A stretch of 48,902 nucleotides of DNA, taken from Acidobacteriota bacterium (GTDB lineage: Bacteria; Acidobacteriota; Thermoanaerobaculia; Multivoradales; JAGPDF01). The notes under the pieces were generated by a model that saw nothing but the letters and a program-made list of their open reading frames with translations, was not told the DNA's origin and did not search any database. The stretch covers positions 1 through 48,902 of the forward strand of contig JACTMI010000044.1 of NCBI GenBank assembly GCA_014584695.1, read 5' to 3'. Shown here in pieces: positions 20,971-28,237 of the stretch; within the stretch, counting starts at the first letter, position 1, and each line of letters begins with the position of its first letter. Made by a program: the position numbers and the translations under genes.

Positions 20971-23226
20971 TCAGAGACGGAGCTTGAAGCGGAGCCCCAC
21001 GACATTCGCCGTGTAGTCACCGTAGTTGCCGTTCAGCAACAGGGCGCCCGGCAGATAGTAGGTCAGGCCGCGGGTGATGAAGCTCGATAGCGAGTAGTCC
21101 TCGTAGCGGTAGTCGAGACCCGCCGAGAGGTTGGGCGTCAGCTCGTAGTCGAGCGCCATCTTGAAGCTCAGGATCTCGATGTCCTCGTAGTCGTCGAAGC
21201 CGACCGCGAGATTCGGAGCTCCCCCCGGCGGGCTGAACATGTCGGCCAGTCCGTCGGACTTGTTCCAAGTCCCCTTGAGGTCGAGCTTCCACTTGCCGGA
21301 AGTCATGTTGTAGCCGAGGCCGGCGGTGTCGTTGGCCTCCTCGAAGGTCACGTCCCAGTCGTCGAGCGGATTGGTCGAGGGTGTGGCTCCCGACTGCCGG
21401 GAGCGCTGGAAGACCTCGCGATCCGAGCGATGGTAGAAGACGTACAGATTCGACCCCTCGGCGATCGCGAACGACAGCTCGGCGTCGTACTGAATCAGCT
21501 CGTCGCCGACCAGGCCGAAGCGGCTCTTGGTGTAGTCGTCGTCGCGGCTGGTGACACCGAAGGCGAGGTCGACGCGGTCGCTGATCCACCAGTGACCCCG
21601 CACCGAGAAGGCGTCGTATTCGCGCGCCGCCTCGTCGTACTTGCGCAGGGCCGGCAGGTTGTTGATTCCCTCCGGATGGATGAAGGTGACTTCCTGGGCC
21701 TCGGTCGAATACTCGCCGATCGACTTGTCCCCCATCTCGTAGGCGAACCTCAGGTCGAGGCGTCCGAGCTTGGTGTCGTAAGTCAGCCGCAAGATGTCCT
21801 CGTCGCTGGTTTCGATCTCCCGGAACTTGCGGTCCCAGCTCTGCCGGGCGACCATCAGGCCGAGGCGGCCATCCTTGCCGATCGAGTAGCCGAGATCGGC
21901 CGAGTAGTCCTCGATCGTGTAGGCGTACGGCACGGTGACGCGGCCGATCTCCTCCCACACGCCGTGGTAGCGCACGTAGCCCGGGAAGCGGATGGTGGCC
22001 GACTTGTTGTCGTAGTCGTAGTACTTGACCCGGAAACCGAGCGTCCAGTTGTCGGCGAACCGGGTGTTGGCCGAGCCGGTGAAGGTCAGCACGTCGACCT
22101 TGCTGTCGGCGTTCGACACCGGCAGGGCGCCGCGCGAGGTCGCCGCGAAGGTCTGGCCGTTGAATCCGACGCCGACGATCGCGGTGTTCTCGGTGTAGGC
22201 CTGGAGCGGGTCGTTCTGCTCCATGGTGCCGAAGGAGAGCGCGCCCGAGAGGTTCCAGGTGCCCGCCTTCATCCGGCCATTGACGAACATCCAGCTCGCC
22301 TCGTTGTCCGGGGCGAGCGCCGCGAGCCCGATCGCCGAGCCACCGACCGACGCGGTGCCGGGTGCCTGGTAGGCGGAGGGATCGGTCGAGCTGGTGATCC
22401 GGAACGGGTTGTCCCAGATCATGGCGGCGAGATCGTTCTCGAACTTCGAGTAGCGGTAGCCGAAGGTGAGGCCGCCCTTCTTGCCCTTGAGCTCGCCCGA
22501 GATCTGGGCGTCCGAGGTCTTGTAGTCGATCGGCTCGGGCAGCTCGACGACGCTGCCGAAGCCGAACGCGGCTCCGTAGGGGCGGTTGCCGTACCGGTTC
22601 TCCTGCTTGTACTCGAGGTTCCAGGCCATCCGCCCCATCTTGCCGAGATCGAGCTTCGCCCGGGTGCGGTCCCGCTGCAGCCCCAGGTCGAGGGTGTTCG
22701 ATGCGGCGAGGAAGGGGCGCAGCAGGTTGTTCAGGTAGGCGTAGTTGATGGCGTTGCGGTTGGCCGCGAACTGGTTGACGAGCGTCGTCTGGAGCGCCTG
22801 CTGGATGGTGTCCGACAGCTCGAACCGGCCGGGAGCGGTCTCCGTCAGGAGCAGCTTCGCGTTGTTGCCGAAGTGGTGGGGGATCTTGTTGTAGTCGATC
22901 TGCATCCCCCACCGGCCGGAGACGCCGTAGTCCAGGGTGTAGCGGGCGTCCCGCCGGCCGACCCAGCTGGAGCGCAGCGACAGGTACCTGCCGGTCTCGG
23001 CGTCGCCGCCCGTGATCACCATCTTCGGAATGGCGAAGCCGGTCGTCCAGTCGGAATATTCGTTGAACTTCGAGGAATCGGTGTCGACGTCGACGTCGTA
23101 GACGGCGAGGTCGAGTCGGTCCAGGTTGAGCTGGAATCCCGTGGCCTTGTCGTCGGCGGCGAGCGGGCCGCCGAACAGAGCGAGGGCCGCGGCGAGCGTC
23201 ACGACGAAACGATGTTGCGCACGCAT
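20971..23226 (-). CDS. MtrB/PioB-family outer-membrane beta-barrel
   Basis: A 751-residue exported protein (signal peptide about 1-24, ending LAA) made almost entirely of alternating amphipathic strands with aromatic girdles, ending in VGLRFKLRL as outer-membrane barrels do. Length and pattern fit MtrB/PioB porins (about 700-800 residues), which sheathe a decahaem cytochrome and let electrons cross the outer membrane. No N-terminal CxxC pair is present, unlike MtrB of Shewanella. The ATG at 23226 has TAGGAG upstream; the frame is open far upstream but that overlaps the cytochrome gene. It lies 11 bp downstream of the decahaem gene, so they form one operon. Confidence 0.9.
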   Translation of the reverse strand: MRAQHRFVVTLAAALALFGGPLAADDKATGFQLNLDRLDLAVYDVDVDTDSSKFNEYSDWTTGFAIPKMVITGGDAETGRYLSLRSSWVGRRDARYTLDYGVSGRWGMQIDYNKIPHHFGNNAKLLLTETAPGRFELSDTIQQALQTTLVNQFAANRNAINYAYLNNLLRPFLAASNTLDLGLQRDRTRAKLDLGKMGRMAWNLEYKQENRYGNRPYGAAFGFGSVVELPEPIDYKTSDAQISGELKGKKGGLTFGYRYSKFENDLAAMIWDNPFRITSSTDPSAYQAPGTASVGGSAIGLAALAPDNEASWMFVNGRMKAGTWNLSGALSFGTMEQNDPLQAYTENTAIVGVGFNGQTFAATSRGALPVSNADSKVDVLTFTGSANTRFADNWTLGFRVKYYDYDNKSATIRFPGYVRYHGVWEEIGRVTVPYAYTIEDYSADLGYSIGKDGRLGLMVARQSWDRKFREIETSDEDILRLTYDTKLGRLDLRFAYEMGDKSIGEYSTEAQEVTFIHPEGINNLPALRKYDEAAREYDAFSVRGHWWISDRVDLAFGVTSRDDDYTKSRFGLVGDELIQYDAELSFAIAEGSNLYVFYHRSDREVFQRSRQSGATPSTNPLDDWDVTFEEANDTAGLGYNMTSGKWKLDLKGTWNKSDGLADMFSPPGGAPNLAVGFDDYEDIEILSFKMALDYELTPNLSAGLDYRYEDYSLSSFITRGLTYYLPGALLLNGNYGDYTANVVGLRFKLRL

Positions 23227-23237
23227 GGCCTTGGCTC

Positions 23238-24146
23238 CTAGTAACCCAGGTACGGGCTCGAGGGGTGGTTGCTGCCGTGGATCGTCGCGTGGCAATCCAG
23301 GCAGGCGCGGTTGAAGATCCGGTTGCTGCCGGTCTGCGGCGCGTCCGGGCCCGGCAGACGGGTGTTGTCGTACAGCGTACCGGGGTGCCGGGTGTTCGAG
23401 TGGCACTGCTGGCAGATGTACGGCACCGAAGTCTTCTGCAGCTTGATGTGGTTGGAGCCGTGCGGGGTGTGGCAGTTCAGGCAGTTCTCGCGCACCGGCG
23501 CGTGCTCCCACAGGAACGGCCCGCGCTTCTCCGCGTGGCAGCTGTAGCACATCTCGTTGACCGACTCGGCGGCGATCAGCTTGGCCGTCTGCGTGCCGTG
23601 CGGGTTGTGGCAGTCGGCGCAGGCGATCTTGCCCTCGCGGATCGGGTGGTGCGAGTTCTTCCACAGCTCGGCGCGCACGTTCTTGTGGCAGGACAGGCAC
23701 GACTCCATCGCGTTGCGCGAGCTGAGCAGCGCGACCTCGGACTTGGGGGCGTGGACCGAGTGGCAGTCGGCGCAGCTGACGCCCCGGGTCTGGTGCATGC
23801 TGCCGTGCCAGAAGAACTGCTTGCCGCCATCGTGGCAGCTCTGGCACATCGCGTCCTTGTCGGCCGCCTTCTTCCCGGCGAGCGACGGCCGCAGCGCCTC
23901 GTTGTCCGGATCGTCGGCGTGGGCCGAGCCCGGACCGTGGCAGCTCTCGCAGCCGTGAGCACTGAGTCGGCCGAAGGCCGGCGAACCGTGGGCGGTGCCG
24001 GCGACCTGGTCGACGACTTCCTCGTGGCAGGTGGCGCAGGTGTCGTTGCCGACGTAGGTCGCCCCGGGCGTCTGTGCGGTCGCCGAGACGCCCCAGGCCA
24101 GCGCGACCGCCGCGACGGCCACCGAGGTCCCGAGTCTCCAATTCAT
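23238..24146 (-). CDS. DmsE/MtrA-type decahaem c-type cytochrome
   Basis: A 302-residue periplasmic cytochrome with signal peptide (about 1-25, ending ATAQ) and exactly ten CxxCH sites: CATCH, CESCH, CQSCH, CADCH, CLSCH, CADCH, CYSCH, CLNCH, CQQCH and CLDCH. Size and haem spacing match MtrA/DmsE/PioA decahaems, which plug into MtrB-type barrels. The ATG at 24146 is preceded by AGAGGAGGG. It is first in the operon with the porin. The family name DmsE does not imply DMSO reduction: no DMSO reductase subunit is present. Confidence 0.95.
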   Translation of the reverse strand: MNWRLGTSVAVAAVALAWGVSATAQTPGATYVGNDTCATCHEEVVDQVAGTAHGSPAFGRLSAHGCESCHGPGSAHADDPDNEALRPSLAGKKAADKDAMCQSCHDGGKQFFWHGSMHQTRGVSCADCHSVHAPKSEVALLSSRNAMESCLSCHKNVRAELWKNSHHPIREGKIACADCHNPHGTQTAKLIAAESVNEMCYSCHAEKRGPFLWEHAPVRENCLNCHTPHGSNHIKLQKTSVPYICQQCHSNTRHPGTLYDNTRLPGPDAPQTGSNRIFNRACLDCHATIHGSNHPSSPYLGY

Positions 24147-24392: not shown

Positions 24393-24734
24393 ATGAGAAT
24401 GACGACCCGTTGGATCGCCGGCGCCGCCGGCCTCTACGCCTTCGCCGCCATCGCCACGGCCGCCCCCGCCGCCGACGGCAAGGAGGTCTTCCTGGCGCAG
24501 AAGTGCAATGTCTGCCACGCGGTCTCGACCGCCGGCATCGAGGCGACCACCAAGTCCGAGAAGATGAAGGGGCCGGACCTGGTCGGCACCATCCAGGCGC
24601 ACGGTGCCGACACCATGGTCAAGTACCTGAAGAAGGAAGTCGACCTCAACGGCAAGAAGCACCCCAAGGAGATGAAAGCGACCGACGAGGAGATCCAGGC
24701 GATGATCGCCTTCCTCGAGGCGCAGAAGAAGTGA
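24393..24734 (+). CDS. Small monohaem cytochrome c
   Basis: A 113-residue periplasmic cytochrome with signal peptide (about 1-24) and one haem site CNVCH (residues 38-42). A likely axial Met lies in HPKEMKATDEEI, followed by a C-terminal helix, the class I layout. ATG at 24393 with AGAGGAGG upstream. It is first in the plus-strand electron-transfer operon and is the natural soluble shuttle between the two inner-membrane cytochromes downstream and the outer-membrane decahaem encoded divergently. Confidence 0.93.
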   Translation: MRMTTRWIAGAAGLYAFAAIATAAPAADGKEVFLAQKCNVCHAVSTAGIEATTKSEKMKGPDLVGTIQAHGADTMVKYLKKEVDLNGKKHPKEMKATDEEIQAMIAFLEAQKK

Positions 24735-24831: not shown

Positions 24832-26238
24832 GTGAGCGTGAAGAGCTTCTTCGCGGCGCTCACACGCCATCCCCTGAGCTTGACCGGCACGGCGATCGCC
24901 ACCGCCGCGGCGATCCTCTTCCTCTTCCTCTTCTCCCTCGACGCGCTCGGCCTGCACGGCCACCCCTACATCGGCATCCTGTCGTACCTGATCGTCCCGG
25001 CCCTGTTCGTCCTCGGGCTGGTGCTGATCCCGATCGGGCTGCGCCGCGCGCGCAAGAGGCACGGCGCGGCGGCGCCGCTGCCGGTGATCGACTTCAACCT
25101 CGAGGCGACGCGCAACCGCTTCCTGGTCTTCCTGGCGCTCACCGTGGTCAACGTGGTGATCGTCGCGCTGGCCACCTACAAAGCAGTCGAGGTGATGGAC
25201 ACCACCGCCTTCTGCGGCGAGGCCTGCCACTCGGTGATGGCGCCCGAGCACACCGCCTTCCAGCGCGGCGCGCACGCCAGCACGCGCTGCGTCGACTGCC
25301 ACATCGGCCCTGGCGCGGGCTGGTTCGTCAAGTCGAAGCTCTCCGGCTCCTGGCAGGTGGTCTCCGTCGCCCTCAACCTCTACCCGACGCCGATTCCGAC
25401 CCCGGTCCACTCCCTGCGGCCGGCGCGCGAGACCTGCGAGCAGTGCCACTGGCCGCAGAAGTTCGTCGGTGACCGTCTGCGGGTGATCACCAAGTACGAC
25501 GACGATGAGGCGAGCACCGAGCGCAAGACCGTCCTGCTCATGCGCGTGGGTGGCCTCGTCGGCCGGGCTTCGCAGGGGATCCACTGGCACGTCGATCCCT
25601 CGCACACGATCCGCTACCGCTCGGACGCGTCGCGCGAGACGATCTACGAGGTCGAGATGACCGACCTGCGCGGCGGCGAGGTGGTCCGTTGGTACGCCGA
25701 CGGCGCCGAGGAAGGGGGCGCGGAGGCGACCACCGGCATCTGGCGCACGATGGACTGCGTCGACTGCCACAACCGTCCGAGCCACACCTTCCGTCCGCCG
25801 GCGGTGGAGATCGACGAGGCGATCGCCACCGCGCGCATCGCGCGTGACCTGCCGTACGTCCGCCGCGAGGGCATGAAACTGATCACCGCCGACTACGCCG
25901 ACCGCGAGGCGGCGCGCCTCGCCATCCGCGACGGCCTGACCCGCTTCTACGTCGACGAGTACCCCGAGGTCGCCGCCGACCGCGCCGCCGACATCGACGC
26001 CGCGGCGACGGCTCTGTTCGAGGGCTGGGCGGGCAACGTCTTTCCCGGCATGAAGGTGAGCTGGGGAACCTACCCGAACCACATCGGTCACGAGCAGGCG
26101 CCCGGCTGCTTCCGCTGCCACGACGACGCCCACTCGACCCCCGAAGGCAAGGCGATCTCGCAGGATTGCGAGACCTGCCACTCGATCCTGGCGATGGAAG
26201 AGGTCGAACCCGAGATCCTGGCCACGCTCTCGCCCTGA
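24832..26238 (+). CDS. NapC/NirT-like membrane hexahaem cytochrome (ImcH-like)
   Basis: A 468-residue inner-membrane protein with three N-terminal membrane helices (about 17-38, 48-70, 97-118) followed by a periplasmic haem domain. Six haem sites: the first is the unusual CGEACH (CX3CH, residues 128-133), then CVDCH, CEQCH, CVDCH, CFRCH and CETCH. The HSVMAPEHTAFQ and CHIGPGAGWFVKSKLSG stretch is of NapC/NirT type, the family of quinol dehydrogenases. Classical NapC has one helix and four haems, so this long form is closer to Geobacter ImcH. GTG at 24832 with GGAGGG upstream. It probably passes electrons between the quinone pool and periplasmic cytochromes. Confidence 0.9.
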   Translation: MSVKSFFAALTRHPLSLTGTAIATAAAILFLFLFSLDALGLHGHPYIGILSYLIVPALFVLGLVLIPIGLRRARKRHGAAAPLPVIDFNLEATRNRFLVFLALTVVNVVIVALATYKAVEVMDTTAFCGEACHSVMAPEHTAFQRGAHASTRCVDCHIGPGAGWFVKSKLSGSWQVVSVALNLYPTPIPTPVHSLRPARETCEQCHWPQKFVGDRLRVITKYDDDEASTERKTVLLMRVGGLVGRASQGIHWHVDPSHTIRYRSDASRETIYEVEMTDLRGGEVVRWYADGAEEGGAEATTGIWRTMDCVDCHNRPSHTFRPPAVEIDEAIATARIARDLPYVRREGMKLITADYADREAARLAIRDGLTRFYVDEYPEVAADRAADIDAAATALFEGWAGNVFPGMKVSWGTYPNHIGHEQAPGCFRCHDDAHSTPEGKAISQDCETCHSILAMEEVEPEILATLSP

Positions 26239-26284: not shown

Positions 26285-28237
26285 ATGACCCCGCGCCCGC
26301 TCGCTTCGCTGGTTGCCGCTTCGGCCCTGGTGGCCACCCTGACCTGGTGCGCGCCGGCGAGCGCCCAGGAGGACTGCCTCTCCTGCCACGCCTCGGCCGA
26401 CGACGTCGGGGACGAGAAGCTCGCCGTCGCGCCGGCGGCCTGGGAGCGGACCGTGCACGGGGCCCTCGGGCTGGCCTGCTCCGACTGCCATGCGGGCAAG
26501 GAGGAGTACCCCCACGCCGAGAGCGACCCGAAGTCGACCTGCGCCGACTGCCACGGCGACGTGCTCGACGCCCTCGCGGCGAGCGCGCACGCGCCCGGTG
26601 GCGGCGGCGCCGAGCGGCCCAGCTGCTCGGCCTGCCACGGCTCCGTCCACGCCATGGTCGCCGCGGACGATCCGGCTTCGCCCATCCACCCGCTGCGCAT
26701 GACCCAGACCTGCGCCGCCTGCCACGCCGATCCGAAGCTGGGCGAGGCCGCTGGCCTCAAGCTGGTGCAGCCGATCGCCGCCTACGCTTCGAGCGCCCAC
26801 GCCAGGGCGGTCGAGCGCGGCGAGCACGCCGCGACCTGCACGGCTTGCCACGGCGGCCACGACATCCTCTCCGCGCGCGAGCCGTCGTCGCGGGTGAACC
26901 GCCAGAACGTCGCGGCGACATGCGGCGAGTGCCACGGCGAAATCGCCGAGGTGTTCGCCGCCAGCGTGCACGGCATCGCCTCCGCGCGCGGGATCCGCGA
27001 ATCCCCCACCTGCACCGACTGCCACGGCGAGCATCGCATCCTGGGTCCCGGGGACCGCGGCTCGCCGATTTTCGCCTCGAACGTCGCCAACATGACCTGC
27101 GGCCGCTGCCACGGCGATCTCCGGGTGACCGAGAAGTTCGGTCTCAAGGCGACGGCGGTCAGCGCGTTCCAGGACAGCTTCCACGGCCTCGCCGGTCGCG
27201 CCGGCAGCGTCTCGGTGGCCAACTGCGCTTCGTGCCACGGCGTGCACGACATCCTCCCCTCGACCGACCCGCGCTCGCACATCCACCCCGACAACCTGGC
27301 CGCGACCTGCGGCTCCTGTCATCCGGGGGCGGGCACGCGCTACGCCATCGGACCGGTTCACGTGCTGCCGCAGGACCGCGGTTCTGCCCACCCCGCGGTC
27401 TGGTGGGTGCGGATCAGCTACCTGTGGCTGATCTGGCTGACCATCGGCGGCATGGTGCTGCACAACCTGCTCGATCTCCGGCGCAAGGTGCTGTCGCCCG
27501 CGCCGCGGCCGGTCGTGCCGGTGGCGCAGCGGCGCCAACGCATGTCGCTCGGCTTCCGCATCGCCCACGCGGGGCTGTTCACCAGCTTCGGCGTCCTGGT
27601 CTGGACCGGCTTCGCGCTCAAGTACCCGGAGGCGACCTGGGCCGCGCCGCTGCTCGCCTGGGAGGAGCGCTTCGGCTTCCGCGGCTGGCTCCACCGCGGC
27701 GCCGCGATCGTCATGCTGGCGGCGTTCGCCTACCACGCCGTCCACCTGGTGATCGACCGCCGCGCGCGGGCCTGTATCGGCGGGATGATGCCGAACCGCC
27801 ACGACCTGCACGAGCTGCGCGAGAAGGTGCGCTGGTTCCTGGGCTGGCGCAAGGACATGCCGCAGGCCCCGCCGCTCGGCTACGCCGAGAAGGCGGAGTA
27901 CCTGGCGCTGGTCTGGGGCACCGTGGTCATGGCGGTGACCGGTTTCCTGCTCTGGTTCTCCAACTGGACGCTCACCTACTTCCCGAAGTGGGTCTCCGAC
28001 GTCGCCACGGTCGTCCACTTCTACGAAGCCGTCCTGGCGTCGCTCGCGATCGTGGTCTGGCACTTCTACTTCGTGATCTTCGACCCGCTGGTCTACCCGA
28101 TGGACACCGCCTGGCTGACCGGCAAGGAGGCTCCGGGCCGCACCCTGGAGCGGCTGGCCTCGGTCATCGAGCCGAAGCCGCAGGCGCCCAAGGTGGCCAA
28201 GAATTCCAAGCGCGACTCCGGCCCGGCCCCGGGCTGA
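26285..28237 (+). CDS. Eleven-haem c-type cytochrome fused to a cytochrome b domain (CbcL-like)
   Basis: A 650-residue protein with signal peptide (about 1-27), then eleven CxxCH sites over about 340 residues, then five membrane helices (about 375-397, 427-447, 472-490, 538-558, 581-599). His residues in the helices (HNLL, IAHAG, YHAVH, VVHFYEA, WHFYF) fit a di-haem b561/FdnI-type domain. The layout matches Geobacter CbcL, a quinone oxidoreductase with a multihaem head and b-type anchor, although CbcL has fewer c haems. ATG at 26285 has GGAGG nine bases upstream; a TTG at 26249 is less likely. It ends the operon. A weak GGCC hairpin with CTTTTG follows at about 28247. Confidence 0.92.
   Translation: MTPRPLASLVAASALVATLTWCAPASAQEDCLSCHASADDVGDEKLAVAPAAWERTVHGALGLACSDCHAGKEEYPHAESDPKSTCADCHGDVLDALAASAHAPGGGGAERPSCSACHGSVHAMVAADDPASPIHPLRMTQTCAACHADPKLGEAAGLKLVQPIAAYASSAHARAVERGEHAATCTACHGGHDILSAREPSSRVNRQNVAATCGECHGEIAEVFAASVHGIASARGIRESPTCTDCHGEHRILGPGDRGSPIFASNVANMTCGRCHGDLRVTEKFGLKATAVSAFQDSFHGLAGRAGSVSVANCASCHGVHDILPSTDPRSHIHPDNLAATCGSCHPGAGTRYAIGPVHVLPQDRGSAHPAVWWVRISYLWLIWLTIGGMVLHNLLDLRRKVLSPAPRPVVPVAQRRQRMSLGFRIAHAGLFTSFGVLVWTGFALKYPEATWAAPLLAWEERFGFRGWLHRGAAIVMLAAFAYHAVHLVIDRRARACIGGMMPNRHDLHELREKVRWFLGWRKDMPQAPPLGYAEKAEYLALVWGTVVMAVTGFLLWFSNWTLTYFPKWVSDVATVVHFYEAVLASLAIVVWHFYFVIFDPLVYPMDTAWLTGKEAPGRTLERLASVIEPKPQAPKVAKNSKRDSGPAPG

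Follow-up and report, generated by a model that had tools for sequence, protein, structure and literature searches.

A CbcL/MtoC-type protein with eleven c haems and a five-helix cytochrome b, encoded beside an ImcH-like cytochrome and a decahaem/porin pair in an Acidobacteriota bacterium

Homologues of CbcL, MtoC and MtrH carry 3 to 23 CX2CH motifs in their N-terminal part and a HydC/FdnI-like b-type cytochrome in their C-terminal part, with four to six, mostly six, membrane helices and conserved His residues as the b-haem ligands, as set out in passages of Zhong and Shi (2018, PMC6295460). According to the same passages, CbcL-type genes adjoin mtrAB in several species, imcH has no mtrAB beside it, and the ImcH homologues possess three N-terminal membrane helices, one CX3CH and 5-9 CX2CH motifs. 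In the texts consulted, ImcH and CbcL of Geobacter are regarded as two distinct routes out of the quinone pool, serving different redox potentials. The mto clusters (Gallionella ES-2 and Dechloromonas mtoABCD) are described, in a passage of He (2017, PMC5566968), as comprising mtoA, mtoB, a monohaem relay and the nonahaem MtoC, and PmcA, a small periplasmic monohaem cytochrome of Sideroxydans, has been shown to link the inner-membrane cytochrome and MtoA (excerpt of PMC13390432). No description of an operon of the ImcH/CbcL/MtrAB type was found in the literature searched (text only, mostly abstracts and passages).

The window, which is the whole stretch of DNA analysed here (48,902 nucleotides), is one entire contig from an Acidobacteriota bacterium; a plasmid search gave no match. 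The CbcL-like open reading frame has its ATG at 26285, its stop codon at 28235-28237 and a GGAGG-type ribosome site just 5' of the start. It follows a monohaem cytochrome c gene and an ImcH-like gene on the plus strand, 46 bases after the latter, and a decahaem cytochrome gene and a porin gene run divergently from these three on the minus strand. The features are as follows.

20971..23226, minus strand: MtrB/PioB-type outer-membrane porin, by family match; start taken from the translation
23238..24146, minus strand: DmsE/GSU2203-type (MtrA-like) decahaem cytochrome c, by family match; start taken from the translation
24399..24734, plus strand: periplasmic monohaem class I cytochrome c (PF00034), 111 aa, a likely relay
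24832..26238, plus strand: ImcH-like cytochrome of the NapC/NrfH family, 468 aa, with 3 membrane helices, one CX3CH and five CX2CH
26285..28237, plus strand: CbcL/MtoC-type protein, 650 aa, with 11 c haems and a b-type cytochrome, from the open reading frame, motifs, Pfam, model and alignment
26285..26365, plus strand: putative signal peptide, residues 1-27, with AxA before Q28
26366..27391, plus strand: periplasmic head, residues 28-369, with 11 CxxCH and 11 conserved candidate distal His
27392..27493, plus strand: TM0, the first membrane helix, residues 370-403, containing His393, from the model and alignment
27539..28126, plus strand: FdnI-like four-helix di-haem b domain, approximately residues 419-614, with His 428, 470, 578 and 593

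With 11 CX2CH motifs, an FdnI-like b part, five modelled helices and six conserved membrane His, the protein fits the CbcL/MtoC/MtrH kind and is, by itself, ordinary for it. It resembles the CbcL of Geobacter sulfurreducens, with which it was compared by description (passages of PMC6295460), in having a multi-c-haem head N-terminal to an FdnI/HydC-like b cytochrome; it differs in carrying 11 haems where CbcL has nine, and its five helices (from the model) differ from the six of most homologues. The head-plus-anchor layout with more c haems than CbcL, proposed in a first-pass annotation, is thus upheld. The neighbouring 24832-26238 protein shows the helix and motif numbers of ImcH, likewise compared by description. 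The decahaem cytochrome belongs to the DmsE family (TIGR03508, 255 bits against a cut-off of 192.2), and the porin matches PF11854 with 322.7 bits (cut-off 23) and TIGR03509 with 236.4, just below the cut-off of 240.05.

As regards gene content, some clusters of CbcL/MtoC/MtrH homologues include mtrAB or mtoAB as the present one does, whereas its combination of a CbcL-like gene with both an ImcH-like gene and a decahaem/porin pair is unlike the imcH loci in the passages of PMC6295460. The mto clusters are similar in bringing together an MtrAB-type conduit, a monohaem cytochrome and a CbcL-type MtoC, but nine haems are given for the MtoC of ES-2, and the passage on mto (PMC5566968) has no ImcH-like gene. 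In Desulfuromonas soudanensis, too, homologues of imcH and cbcL (DSOUD_0207 and DSOUD_0214; passages of PMC4914508) share a neighbourhood; these lie seven locus tags apart and are mentioned there without mtrAB, whereas the pair in the window are immediate neighbours.

Of 396 genomes sampled from the phylum, 152 gave a match to the CbcL-like protein at E <= 1e-60, and relatives were also found in Gammaproteobacteria, KSB1, Omnitrophota, Ignavibacteria, Latescibacterota and in Calditrichaceae, Gemmatimonas, Planctomycetota and Syntrophaceae bins. Related loci were compared in a best-scoring, similarity-ranked sample of 80, some of them on short contigs. Complete fused genes in these loci encode mostly 11 haems (52 genes) or 13 (18), with 9, 10 and 12 haems in one, two and four genes, respectively, and a longer class of 17 (1), 18 (1), 19 (9) and 21 (1) haems; three further genes, cut by contig ends, were left out of the counts. 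The window protein was aligned with 64 fused relatives on named contigs, selected among 75 complete genes that encode 560-740 aa and 10-13 haems, giving 65 sequences.

The eleven CxxCH motifs of the 650-aa protein far exceed those in its residue shuffles (n=5000; mean 0.05, maximum 2). Motifs 2-11 are kept in all 65 aligned sequences and motif 1 in 62, and, among the eleven candidate distal His, nine are kept in 65/65 and two in 64/65. The last c haem has its CxxCH at 342 and would be paired with His359, which is situated in the linker between head and b part and is present in all 65 sequences, although the model is among its least certain there (residues ~350-369; block means of 60-65). Thus, all eleven haems are predicted from the alignment to be bis-His and non-catalytic, since a conserved candidate distal His for each of them leaves no open catalytic site. 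The head contains ~31 residues and 3.2 kDa of peptide per haem. Multihaem cytochromes with <5 kDa per haem have been grouped as a 'peptide-minimised' electron-transfer class and catalytic ones have >7 kDa per haem (passages of PMC7096707), which places the head in the electron-transfer class.

In a structure search, residues 54-363 nevertheless matched chains of hydroxylamine oxidoreductase (HAO) and hydrazine dehydrogenase with Z up to 8.4, from which it might be supposed that the head is an octahaem enzyme of the HAO/nitrite reductase type and more than a wire. These matches (Z 8.0-8.4), to enzymes of a more compact build, are the best for the head, yet near the stated background of the tool. 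The enzyme reading is regarded as very improbable and was rejected on the grounds of the distal ligands and the peptide mass per haem; the HAO matches may instead hint at a folded arrangement of haems in the modelled head. A separate match was that of the distal haems (residues ~25-159) to PDB chain 28pb_A, a 278-aa chain named 'Cytochrome c' (E 2e-13).

The b part matches Ni_hydr_CYTB (PF01292) with 47.3 bits (cut-off 30.1). The AlphaFold2 model of the whole protein (pLDDT 85.9, pTM 0.69) contains five long helices, at residues 370-403, 422-446, 465-490, 533-557 and 568-599. A simple hydropathy scan raised only three of the five above its threshold, in addition to the signal peptide, so the count of five rests on the model and on the match to FdnI. 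The latter, the gamma subunit of Escherichia coli formate dehydrogenase-N (1kqf_C), is the best structural match of the membrane part (Z 14.4, rmsd 3.4 Å, 204 of 216 residues aligned; next-best cytochrome b, Z 10.9) and is also matched by sequence (E 1e-12); a Foldseek search with the entire model gave no match at E <= 0.001. FdnI shares the four-helix di-haem b fold, and four of its His, which we take to be its haem ligands, align with His428, His470, His578 and His593; it differs in being a separate subunit and in having neither TM0 nor a c-haem head. The eleven c haems and the five-helix cytochrome b read from the sequence at first pass are therefore both confirmed, and a quinone-linked role for the protein is likely.

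Six membrane His (393, 428, 470, 484, 578 and 593) are invariant in the 65 fused sequences. His393 and His484 (codons 27461-27463 and 27734-27736) are additional to the four aligned with FdnI, and may possibly serve a third b haem or form a piece of the quinone site.

It had further been proposed that this single polypeptide extends from the quinone far into the periplasm, bypasses the soluble carrier and docks on the decahaem cytochrome directly. By the published linear relation of haem number to length for the peptide-minimised class, ~27 haems are needed for a periplasm of 200 Å, and MtrA reaches ~30 Å into the periplasm (PMC7096707, in the passages on these points). The eleven-haem head is estimated from this relation at ~80 Å, so that a gap of ~90 Å would be left, and the protein by itself would probably fall short of spanning the cell envelope. 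Direct docking would agree with the low peptide content per haem of a wire-like head and with the adjacency of the decahaem and porin genes in the window, and the two lengths of ~80 and ~30 Å could suffice if the periplasm were narrow. A search of the genome with Pfam PF14522 also detected no stand-alone small c7 carrier, a result that counts against a diffusing carrier; outside the cluster it matched a tetrahaem protein encoded beside NrfD-like genes, an NrfHA-like pair and, in an ACIII-like cluster, a pentahaem protein, all three named here from gene order, length and sequence and not from family searches. A search of the genome with a haem-pair pattern gave no matches, the pattern being so tight that even the CbcL-like protein was missed. 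On the other side, the cluster itself encodes a monohaem cytochrome c, and such a gene occurs beside the CbcL-like or the ImcH-like gene in 26 of the 80 loci; a DmsE-type decahaem gene was found in only 12 of the 80, in the stretch examined per locus; and the proximal haems are, by a weak match, closer to the folded clusters of HAO than to an extended wire. Direct docking with no need of a soluble carrier is thus considered unlikely in any but a narrow periplasm, and the claims of reach, bypass and docking are not sustained.

The rarity of the decahaem gene near the relatives and a weak association of the porin suggest that, in many cases, a different protein may act as the outer partner. Within the host order, the association of porin and CbcL-like gene stands at 8 of 16 against 15 of 56 genomes (Fisher p 0.075). 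A custom porin HMM, which misses real porins, matched in 4 of the 80 loci. The 16 candidate porins beside DmsE-type genes include three that passed the PF11854 cut-off (L033, L046 and L071), two with weak PF11854 matches under it (L111 and L132) and two that passed other beta-barrel models (L042 and L048).

The ImcH-like gene is present in 41 of the 80 loci, and the CX3CH motif is found in all 51 ImcH-like proteins across all loci examined. The ImcH-like and CbcL-like genes are immediate neighbours on the same strand in 40 of these 41 loci, and the CbcL-like gene is present in 15 of 18 host-order genomes with an ImcH-like gene against 8 of 54 without (Fisher p 2e-7, kinship ignored). Such figures would be expected if the two proteins formed one complex, a 'two-gear' quinone enzyme in which two quinone sites supply one haem head or draw on it. 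Against this, 39 of the 80 loci, some on short contigs, lack the ImcH-like gene in the stretch examined, as do eight of ten further loci of the phylum chosen for their long contigs (it is adjacent in the other two); the gene order varies (CbcL first in 23, ImcH first in 18); and a shared operon is no proof of a complex. The pairing is therefore common but far from universal, and a complex of the two appears rather doubtful.

The CbcL-like protein is quite probably a reversible inner-membrane menaquinone:cytochrome c oxidoreductase of the CbcL/MtoC/MtrH kind, which exchanges electrons with the outside and is paired with a quinone enzyme of a different type. The domain make-up, the conservation of haem sites and ligands, the family matches and the gene order with its recurrence were observed directly; beyond them, we infer the type of quinone, the carrier, the direction and the joint work of the neighbours. 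The FdnI-like four-helix part would hold two b haems and a quinone site, at which quinol would be oxidised or quinone reduced. Electrons would cross by way of the two b haems, TM0 and the last c haem and then pass along the eleven-haem, all bis-His wire to a diffusing carrier, for which the simplest candidate is the monohaem cytochrome whose gene lies two genes upstream. The carrier would deliver them to the DmsE/MtrB outer-membrane conduit, and the same path may run inwards; outward flow is somewhat favoured. The ImcH-like neighbour would provide a second quinone entry, of the other type, into the same pool. The quinone site of FdnI is on the cytoplasmic side of the membrane. If that of the CbcL-like protein is placed similarly, outward flow would cost membrane energy and inward flow would store it. 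Neither would hold for an ImcH/NapC-type site at the opposite face; such differing energetics would explain why both types are kept together. The recurrent pair, here beside an outer-membrane conduit, offers a natural test of why two quinone enzymes are employed.

The source genome has the 11-haem form only. Longer versions with 21 and 23 haems occur in relatives from the host order, mostly beside the 11-haem gene; sister proteins that carry 21-23 c haems on this type of b anchor are listed below by locus and position.

L031, 9397-12363
L032, 5780-8677
L035, 6934-10026
L037, 6693-9596
L038, 6934-9846
L042, 10330-13212
L048, 9375-12242
L051, 4314-7238
L056, 7030-9858

Long and short forms occur together in 14 of the 80 loci. 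The two halves of the 21-haem head of L056 align at 162 bits, compared with 58 or less in 40 shuffles preserving the haem motifs, so that a tandem duplication is the most likely origin of the long head. A 21-haem head would measure ~150 Å by the same relation. The model of the L056 protein is poor (pLDDT 64.7, pTM 0.48); the membrane part resembles FdnI (Z 14.5), and weak resemblances of the proximal head to HAO and MtrA were found (Z 6.0-6.5). Since 11- and 21-haem sisters share one type of anchor, they allow head length to be tested against the need for a carrier. The same long-form, 11-haem and ImcH-like gene run is present in two Gammaproteobacteria (Woeseiaceae; L061 and L077) as in the Acidobacteriota, which suggests transfer between the phyla.

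Natural splits of the fused gene were found as 16 pairs in the 80 loci (L063-L135) and in L047 (8925-10933), their reading frames overlapping in many cases. In each of the 17, the head frame matches the CbcL-like protein up to residue 396-411 and hence includes TM0, and its partner is a four-helix cytochrome b; the head with TM0 is thus one module and the FdnI-like part another. His393 is not universal in the splits, another residue being seen by eye in L135.

Two features merit further attention: the head duplication in the sister gene and the repeated presence of an ImcH-like partner. A bolder idea, to which only a slight probability is attached, is that the ImcH-like protein and the CbcL-like one together make up a single quinone machine, with a periplasm-side and a cytoplasm-side site, one head and a Q-cycle-like step, the head being extendable by duplication to 17-23 haems and then nearly spanning the periplasm. 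If so, quinol electrons from one site would partly re-reduce quinone at the other, as a means of saving energy or changing gear.

In addition to the CbcL-like loci proper, a separate cluster was noted in L039 (11110-15550), L055 (1320-5352), L058, L059 and L093. Its genes specify two multihaem proteins, one of ~400 aa with nine haems and one of ~565 aa with 18 haems (the latter with a NapC-type N-terminus in L037), together with a cytochrome b-like protein that has 7-8 membrane helices; a gene of ~150 aa, which may encode a putative Rieske protein, is sometimes present as well.
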